Shown here: positions 25,060 to 39,014 of the stretch, one piece after another | Layout of the letters: every line of letters begins with the position of its first letter | Position numbering within the stretch: the stretch's first letter is position 1 | Notes under the pieces: generated by a model | What the model saw: only the letters and a program-made list of their open reading frames with translations | Databases searched by the model: none | Told to the model about the DNA's origin: nothing | Made by a program: the position numbers and the translations under genes | Source of the DNA: a bacterium | Lineage (GTDB): Bacteria; Patescibacteriota; Gracilibacteria; UBA1369; GCA-2718715 | Assembly (NCBI GenBank): GCA_018662325.1 | Contig: JABJGM010000010.1 | Coordinates: 1 to 52,312, forward strand | DNA length: 52,312 bases | Direction: 5' to 3'

Positions 25060-25665
25060 ATGCAGAATTTAAATTATCTTAGTTTTATCACAAGTATACT
25101 TATTACACTTACAATTCATGAAGCTTCACACGCCCTTGTAGCTTATATTCTGGGAGATAAGACGGCATATCAAGAAGGCAGACTATCTTTAAACCCATTA
25201 AAGCATTTAGACTTATATGGAAGTTTAATGTTTTTACTAGTAAATGTTGGATGGGGCAAACCTGTACCAGTTAAACCCGAAAACTTCAAAAACCCCAAAA
25301 TAGATCAAGCTATCGTTGCATTAGCAGGGCCATTATCTAATTTTATATTAGCATTAATCATCACAATCTTTATAAGTAAAACCAACTCAAGCAACAGCTT
25401 TTTATTTTTATTACGAGAAATAAACATAGCACTATGTGCTTTTAATTTACTACCAATCCCACCCTTGGATGGATCTAAAGTACTAGCTATATTTATGGAT
25501 AATTATCAATACTACAAGTATGAAGTATTTTTACAAAAAAATCTTGCTTATATTTTAATGATATTCTTTATAGATATACAATTTTTAGGACAAAATGGTA
25601 TATTTTTAAATCTTTTAGGAATTATAACAAGCTTTATCAAGGCAATTTTATTTAAAGTAGTTTAA
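25060..25665 (+). CDS. Site-2-protease-type M50 metallopeptidase
   Basis: 201 aa intramembrane zinc protease. Motif HEASH (His 20, Glu 21, His 24) lies in the first membrane helix, NPLKHLDLYGSL follows, and the third zinc ligand is the Asp of LPIPPLDGS (Asp 137). About four to five membrane segments. This compact group (YwhC/rhomboid-neighbour type) lacks PDZ and CBS domains. It should cut a membrane protein within the bilayer, possibly for signalling; the substrate is unknown. The promoter of the following RNA overlaps its stop codon. Confidence 0.88.
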   Translation: MQNLNYLSFITSILITLTIHEASHALVAYILGDKTAYQEGRLSLNPLKHLDLYGSLMFLLVNVGWGKPVPVKPENFKNPKIDQAIVALAGPLSNFILALIITIFISKTNSSNSFLFLLREINIALCAFNLLPIPPLDGSKVLAIFMDNYQYYKYEVFLQKNLAYILMIFFIDIQFLGQNGIFLNLLGIITSFIKAILFKVV

Positions 25666-25689
25666 ATTTCAATCAAAAACATCTATAAT
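25661..25689 (+). promoter_or_regulatory. Promoter of the structured RNA candidate
   Basis: TTTAAA (25661-25666), 17-bp spacer, TATAAT (25684-25689). The expected start is at about 25696, exactly where the RNA's closing stem begins. Confidence 0.65.
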
Positions 25690-25695
25690 TAAAAT

Positions 25696-25849
25696 GTCTA
25701 CTAAGTTCGAAAACATCTGGTGTTACATTCTAGTTTTTCATAATACTAAGGGAGATCAACATTTCTTATCCTCGCGGGGTTAAGGTGCGAACACCCACTT
25801 TACAAACGGAACGGTAGTTCCTCCATTTGTAAAAACGGCTTAGTGGATC
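25696..25849 (+). ncRNA. Candidate structured non-coding RNA (~155 nt)
   Basis: No gene covers this stretch. The first ten bases GTCTACTAAG (25696-25705) pair fully, with two G-U pairs, with CTTAGTGGAT (25839-25848). Inside are further hairpins: GGTG-CGAA-CACC, GGAAC-GGTA-GTTCC held in an outer TTTACAAA/TTTGTAAA stem, CC-TCGC-GG and AACA...TGTT. It has its own promoter whose start falls on the first base of the closing stem. GC content is higher than the surroundings. Closed-end design, length and a private promoter fit 6S-like regulatory RNA, but I cannot match it. SRP, tmRNA and RNase P signatures are missing. No clear intrinsic terminator follows. Confidence 0.6.
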
Positions 25850-25876
25850 ACACTCAAAATAAAAAAGAAAATTACA

Positions 25877-26434
25877 TTAAACATTAATTTTCTCTTTTAA
25901 ATAAATCTGTAAATTGGTATTTAATATGAAAAACAATGGACCCATCAACATATAAACAGCTGCCATTGCTGGTGGGGCATGTAAACAATTACAAATTTCC
26001 AAGGGAGGAAAAGCAACCGTCGCTAAATTTTGAACGCCAACAAAATAATAAAAAAACCATTCGCCAAACAACATAATTAAAACGTAGTAAACAAAATAAA
26101 TTATAAGCTCAAGTCTTAAGTTTAAAGATTTAAGTTCAAAAAAATCTAAAATTTTATAAAACATATAATAAGAAGCATAAAGACCAACACCAAAAGCCAA
26201 AAAAGGAAAAAGGTCAAAAAGATTTAAAACTTTATAACTAAAAGAGTAATTATAAAAATCAACCGAAAAAACAGACCAAAACAAAGAAACTCCAAAAGAT
26301 AAAAGTAAGCTACTTTTATGGTATCTATCATAGATAAACAAAATCAATGTCAAAGAAAATAAAGAAAAGAGTAAAAATTGTGTTTTAAAAAGAAAACTAC
26401 CTATTATAAAAAGAAGAAGAAAAAAGAAAGTCAT
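25877..26434 (-). CDS. Polytopic membrane protein, unknown
   Basis: 185 aa, five or six hydrophobic segments starting at residue 2 and an uncommonly aromatic (Phe/Tyr) composition. A C-terminal loop carries a conserved-looking PPLEICNCLHAPPAM. I do not recognise the family. Its ATG overlaps the stop of the YbaK-like gene by 4 bp (ATGA), so it is the second gene of a coupled pair. Confidence 0.6.
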   Translation of the reverse strand: MTFFFLLLFIIGSFLFKTQFLLFSLFSLTLILFIYDRYHKSSLLLSFGVSLFWSVFSVDFYNYSFSYKVLNLFDLFPFLAFGVGLYASYYMFYKILDFFELKSLNLRLELIIYFVYYVLIMLFGEWFFYYFVGVQNLATVAFPPLEICNCLHAPPAMAAVYMLMGPLFFILNTNLQIYLKEKINV

Positions 26435-32761: not shown

Positions 32762-32876
32762 AAAAAATTAAAACTTGATACCCTCACAAATTCTGCTAAA
32801 TTAAGTTAAGAACAAAATTAAACTAAACGCCATTATAGCTCAGTTGGTAGAGCGCACCCATGGTAAGGGTGAGGTC
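32762..32876 (+). repeat. 115-bp direct repeat, copy 1 (tRNA upstream plus 5' part)
   Basis: Identical base for base to 38872-38986 (offset 6110). It covers 67 bp of upstream sequence and the tRNA-Thr gene up to the variable loop. The identity stops exactly where the T-arm begins. Confidence 0.95.
32775..32802 (+). promoter_or_regulatory. Promoter of tRNA-Thr copy 1
   Basis: TTGATA (32775-32780), 16-bp spacer, TAAATT (32797-32802). It lies inside the direct repeat, so copy 2 has the same promoter at 38885-38912. Confidence 0.6.
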
Positions 32877-32904
32877 ACCGGTTCAATCCCGGTTAATGGC
32901 TCCA
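32829..32904 (+). tRNA. tRNA-Thr(GGU), copy 1
   Basis: 76 bases including an encoded CCA. Acceptor GCCATTA/TAATGGC, D-arm GCTCAGTTGGTAGAGC, anticodon arm CACCC-ATGGTAA-GGGTG with anticodon GGT, T-arm ACCGG-TTCAATC-CCGGT, discriminator T. Fold is complete. Copy 2 differs only in the T-arm. Confidence 0.96.
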
Positions 32905-38871: not shown

Positions 38872-38986
38872 AAAAAATTAAAACTTGATACCCTCACAAA
38901 TTCTGCTAAATTAAGTTAAGAACAAAATTAAACTAAACGCCATTATAGCTCAGTTGGTAGAGCGCACCCATGGTAAGGGTGAGGTC
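38872..38986 (+). repeat. 115-bp direct repeat, copy 2
   Basis: Exact copy of 32762-32876. The stretch 38738-38871 between the large protein gene and this repeat has no gene. Confidence 0.95.
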
Positions 38987-39014
38987 TCGGGTTCGATTCC
39001 CGATAATGGCTCCA
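38939..39014 (+). tRNA. tRNA-Thr(GGU), copy 2
   Basis: Same acceptor, D and anticodon arms as copy 1, anticodon GGT, encoded CCA, but the T-arm is TCGGG-TTCGATT-CCCGA. Both T-stems are fully paired. The changes on one side of the stem are matched on the other. Confidence 0.96.

Follow-up and report, generated by a model that had tools for sequence, protein, structure and literature searches.

6S RNA is widespread in bacteria, and the partner that it needs is the primary sigma factor RpoD. In the described systems its layout mimics an open promoter and holds the housekeeping holoenzyme, which is freed by transcription of a product RNA (PMC8414754; PMC9130861). A reported hallmark of the product RNA is a GG at positions 4/5 or 5/6 (PMC8414754). 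A literature search of partial coverage found no paper that treats 6S RNA of candidate-phyla-radiation bacteria. The locus described here lies in a stretch of 52,312 nucleotides (the window) and is almost certainly the genome's single 6S RNA gene (ssrS), a sequence-divergent representative whose RNA would sequester the RpoD holoenzyme. The genome is from the Peregrinibacteria, which within the candidate phyla radiation belong to the Gracilibacteria side.

Gene Context and Promoter

The RNA is located between an M50-family peptidase gene and a convergent ORF, in about 210 bases of intergenic sequence, and starts about 30 nt past the stop codon of the peptidase gene on the same strand. The features of the locus are:

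25060-25665, forward strand: M50-family site-2-protease-like peptidase, upstream neighbour of the 6S gene and syntenic with it throughout the order (PF02163, 53 bits)
25661-25689, forward strand: predicted sigma-70-type promoter with the -35 element TTTAAA (25661-25666, overlapping the M50 stop codon), a spacer of 17 nt and the -10 element TATAAT (25684-25689), from a motif scan and the conserved -10
25692-25853, forward strand: 6S RNA (ssrS), extent of the covariance-model match
25877-26434, reverse strand: membrane-protein-like ORF, convergent to the M50 peptidase and the RNA

No ORF of at least 40 amino acids overlaps the RNA and every frame contains at least one stop inside it, in agreement with the initial annotation, which had seen no gene across the region. 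It had also described the region as GC-richer than its surroundings, and indeed positions 25696-25848 have a GC content of 40.5%, compared with 29.0% in the window as a whole and 26-28% in the genes on either side; a GC content at least as high was found in 86 of 5216 segments of the same size. The proposed promoter, TTTAAA-N17-TATAAT, was recovered with 10 of 12 consensus matches, in a region where the scan alone would yield 2.4 ± 1.8 such sites by chance. The position of the -10 element is conserved, such that in 53 of 59 6S loci a TANNNT hexamer precedes the model start by 0-7 nt, compared with 6-18 of 59 loci in the other upstream 8-nt intervals. The sequence thereby points to a 6S gene with its own sigma-70-type promoter, from which transcription would begin at about 25696 and yield an RNA of about 155-160 nt. 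A search for an intrinsic terminator at the locus found no clear one.

In relatives an M50 homologue adjoins 6S at 44 of 58 loci, 40 of which have it upstream in the same orientation. Ribosomal protein L28 is encoded near 6S at 17 of 58 loci, likewise in the window. Database contigs that have the gene pair of M50 and 6S carry the names Candidatus Peregrinibacteria, Candidatus Gracilibacteria and Patescibacteria group bacteria. Elsewhere in the window, this reduced genome has two tRNA-Thr genes, both with the anticodon GGT, at 32829-32904 and 38939-39014, separated by about 6 kb.

Identification as 6S RNA

A default Rfam scan of the window reported only two tRNAs and made no 6S call, and a search of the genome with the 6S family RF00013 and its filters missed the window site; both misses are limits of sensitivity. 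At relaxed thresholds RF00013 aligns end to end (1-187) to positions 25692-25853, scoring 27.2 bits at an E of 8e-4 for the stretch, and the next-best Rfam family at the site has an E of 1.5. The Rfam 6S search suggested in the initial annotation thus returned a full-length alignment, but one that falls 19 bits short of the gathering score of 46.4 bits. This score is an annotation threshold rather than a biological feature. Among 148 relatives, RF00013 detects 6S at E<=1 in 61 genomes, with one match each, of which 23 are above the gathering score and 38 under it, and none belongs to the window's own family.

A covariance model, R1, was trained on 30 of these 6S RNAs, which come from the window's order and class, leaving out the window and its family. 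Since RF00013 itself finds 6S in the relatives, the training set of R1 is 6S. When applied to the 980-kb genome (G000), R1 matches the window site over its full length (1-159) with 70.6 bits and an E of 3e-14, whereas the second-best site reaches 10 bits, so that the window site is the sole credible match. One R1 site is also present in each of the three other genomes of the window's family (f1), giving four of four. The covariance search in relatives, which had been proposed as a check, matched 76 of 97 related genomes, almost always at a single site; the match is built in for the 30 training sequences but not for the window's family. A match to a model from other genera, with one site per genome, is strong evidence of orthology. 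The conserved motifs are AAGGGA opposite CACCCAC, and TCG...ACGGC flanking the bulge. The observation underlying the initial annotation, a structured small-RNA gene, is therefore confirmed, and its interpretation is partly supported: the RNA is structured, with a promoter of its own and a closing helix, but the 70.6-bit match to the 6S model and the full-length RF00013 alignment contradict the view that it is new and matches no named family.

Conserved Structure

The structural elements, as defined by the family alignment and the window sequence, are:

25696-25706, forward strand: 5' arm of the closing stem, GTCTACTAAGT, paired with 25838-25848
25711-25750, forward strand: 5' strand of the central bulge, single-stranded in the family consensus
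25751-25795, forward strand: apical arm, in which GGGAGATC (25751-25757) pairs with 25789-25795, followed by the hairpin UCUUAUCCU-CGCG-GGGUUAAGG (25764-25785)
25799-25833, forward strand: predicted 3' hairpin facing the central bulge, UUACAAA-CGGAACGGUAGUUCCUCCA-UUUGUAA
25838-25848, forward strand: 3' arm of the closing stem, GCTTAGTGGAT, paired with 25696-25706

A DNA similarity search of relatives returned one genome only, too few for a covariation test, and covariation was assessed in 59 sequences aligned to the model. In this alignment, which was fitted to the structure and thus favours it, 93.0% of the cells are paired, and compensatory double changes occur at least once in 26 of the 30 pairs. 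The alignment reaches a covariation score of 0.684, compared with 0.231 ± 0.010 for shuffled alignments and 0.109-0.135 with slid partners. Unfitted MAFFT alignments recover the same closing and apical helices, with double changes at 22 of 30 and 21 of 27 pairs.

The closing helix, which the initial annotation had recognised, comprises 11 bp, all of them standard pairs in the window when G-U is counted, and 9 of the 11 pairs show compensatory changes among the 59 sequences. Its strands co-vary even inside the window's family, reading UCUACUAAG/CUUAGUGGA in the window and UCUGUUCUUC/GAAGAAUGGA in the family member G001. In the apical arm, the family alignment shows covariation at all nine pairs of the apical stem (25764-25772 with 25777-25785) and at all four of the lower helix, and the window itself carries mismatches at 25755/25791 and 25769/25780. 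The resemblance to the 6S layout was well observed, as closing stem, central bulge and apical arm are all conserved in the family. Both internal hairpins proposed at the outset are present in the sequence and in its minimum free energy structure, but GGTG-CGAA-CACC conflicts with the conserved apical stem and was rejected as a conserved structure, because GGUG joins that stem in the family alignment and the bases of the hairpin pair otherwise there. The 3' hairpin folds with z = -2.1 in the window, with a mean z of only -0.6 over the 59 sequences; a hairpin at the corresponding place was reported for 6S RNA of lactic acid bacteria and for 6S-1 RNA of B. subtilis (PMC8414754).

The minimum free energy of the whole RNA is -39.1 kcal/mol (z = -2.45), and 4 of 200 shuffled sequences fold equally well, so that the folding energy of the single sequence is suggestive and not decisive. 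With a modest fold z and a promoter scan at chance level, the single sequence is unable to settle the matter; the decisive evidence beyond chance is homology, in the form of the covariance-model match.

Proposed Function and Alternative Explanations

By homology to known 6S RNAs, the fold with its closing stem, asymmetric central bulge and apical arm would mimic the melted DNA of an open promoter, and the RpoD (sigma-70) holoenzyme would for this reason bind the RNA and be kept off genes when growth slows. Once nucleotides return, the 5' side of the bulge would serve the polymerase as template for a short product RNA, leading to release. Based on the layout described for known 6S RNAs, positions 25711-25750 would correspond to the side used as template (PMC8414754). 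The genome encodes the primary sigma factor RpoD (ORF at L143; 367.9 bits with TIGR02393, whose cut-off is 354), for which SigA/RpoD are the best structure matches and region 4.2, VTRERIRQIEAK, is intact. Polymerase binding, the product RNA and a physiological role are proposed for the window RNA by homology. Its sequence supports every structural premise of the 6S mechanism except the product-RNA start: the 5' bulge is aberrant, with two extra bases and without the UCUCUCU motif (the UACUCUCUCU-like stretch of the family), no CC that would template the GG of a product RNA is recognisable at the expected place within 25711-25750, and the start is not placeable by alignment.

This deviation could indicate a 6S-derived RNA that has kept the fold and changed its function, either binding polymerase without release by a product RNA or binding the core polymerase like actinobacterial Ms1. 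The loss of the UACUCUCUCU-like motif and the gain of two bases, the lack of a visible GG-type start and the low Rfam score would be in line with such a change. However, compensatory changes have preserved the closing stem, the apical arm and the CACCCAC/AAGGGA motifs, the promoter and the synteny are intact, the primary sigma factor is encoded in the genome, and product-RNA starts differ between lineages in any case, so that a change of function is improbable. Likewise, we consider it unlikely that 6S in this family retains the promoter-mimic fold, has lost the canonical product-RNA start and is released by another route.

That no Rfam family reaches its gathering score at the site might instead argue for a novel class of structured RNA with a superficial likeness to 6S. 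This is very hard to reconcile with a significant, full-length and unique match to a 6S model built without the window, with a gene neighbourhood common to clear 6S genes and with conserved motifs common to 6S relatives, and a novel class is accordingly given a very low probability. The RNA has the orientation of the M50 gene and begins so soon after its stop codon that its position could also suggest a UTR or attenuator of a neighbouring mRNA, namely the 3' end of the M50 transcript. Yet the conserved promoter element belongs to the RNA itself, the next downstream gene is on the other strand, and four relatives have kept the RNA with the M50 gene on the opposite strand or on the other side, which makes a UTR very unlikely. 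A divergent 6S RNA is therefore the preferred reading.

Distribution and Annotation of 6S RNA in the Lineage

The locus shows that 6S RNA, with its predicted global role in sequestering polymerase, is retained in the highly reduced, probably host-dependent genomes of Peregrinibacteria. More than half of the 6S genes that can be recognised in the lineage escape the default Rfam thresholds, and a lineage-specific covariance model would improve their annotation. The finding is mainly of value for annotation and for tracing how widely 6S occurs among candidate-phyla-radiation bacteria. In another family of the same order (f3; G005, G020, G031, G037, G044 and G055), full candidate scoring found 6S in none of the six genomes, the best match having an E of 3.5 and about 12 bits. 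Five of the six are 97-100% complete and most of the order has 6S; a lineage-specific loss or a very divergent 6S RNA is possible.

The genome G087 has two matches to the 6S model, C32:1539-1699 (73.6 bits) and C107:181-333 (33.7 bits), reflecting either a second 6S RNA or contamination, which is about 5% in G087. Weaker matches to the 6S model are located beside M50 homologues in Kazan (L129, 3676-3818, 46.1 bits), Gracilibacteria (L124, 3321-3476, 26.7 bits) and Shapirobacteria (L134, 5345-5511, 25.6 bits). Judging from the latter three matches, 6S may be distributed more widely in the candidate phyla radiation.

Comparison With Known Systems

The canonical layout is common to the window RNA and E. 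coli 6S RNA (ssrS), and the CUCUG..AUGUUCG 5' strand and the CGGC 3' strand of the lineage resemble those of E. coli 6S. The window RNA differs from E. coli 6S in being about 20-25 nt shorter, in its gene neighbours and in that the product-RNA start is not recognisable. Ms1 RNA of Actinobacteria also has a 6S-like fold and binds RNA polymerase (PMC9130861), but it is the core polymerase that is bound, the synteny is another, and nothing in the window points specifically to Ms1. The closest counterparts are the 6S RNAs (RF00013) from genomes of its own order and class. Among those aligned, even the nearest is at most 56% identical to the window RNA, which is further distinguished by the altered 5' bulge motif, a 2-nt insertion, the two mismatches in the apical arm and the Rfam score below the gathering threshold. 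At the same time it shares with them the length, the closing stem, the central bulge, the apical arm and possibly the 3' hairpin, as well as the AAGGGA...CACCCAC and UCG...CGGC motifs, the position of the promoter and the M50 neighbour.
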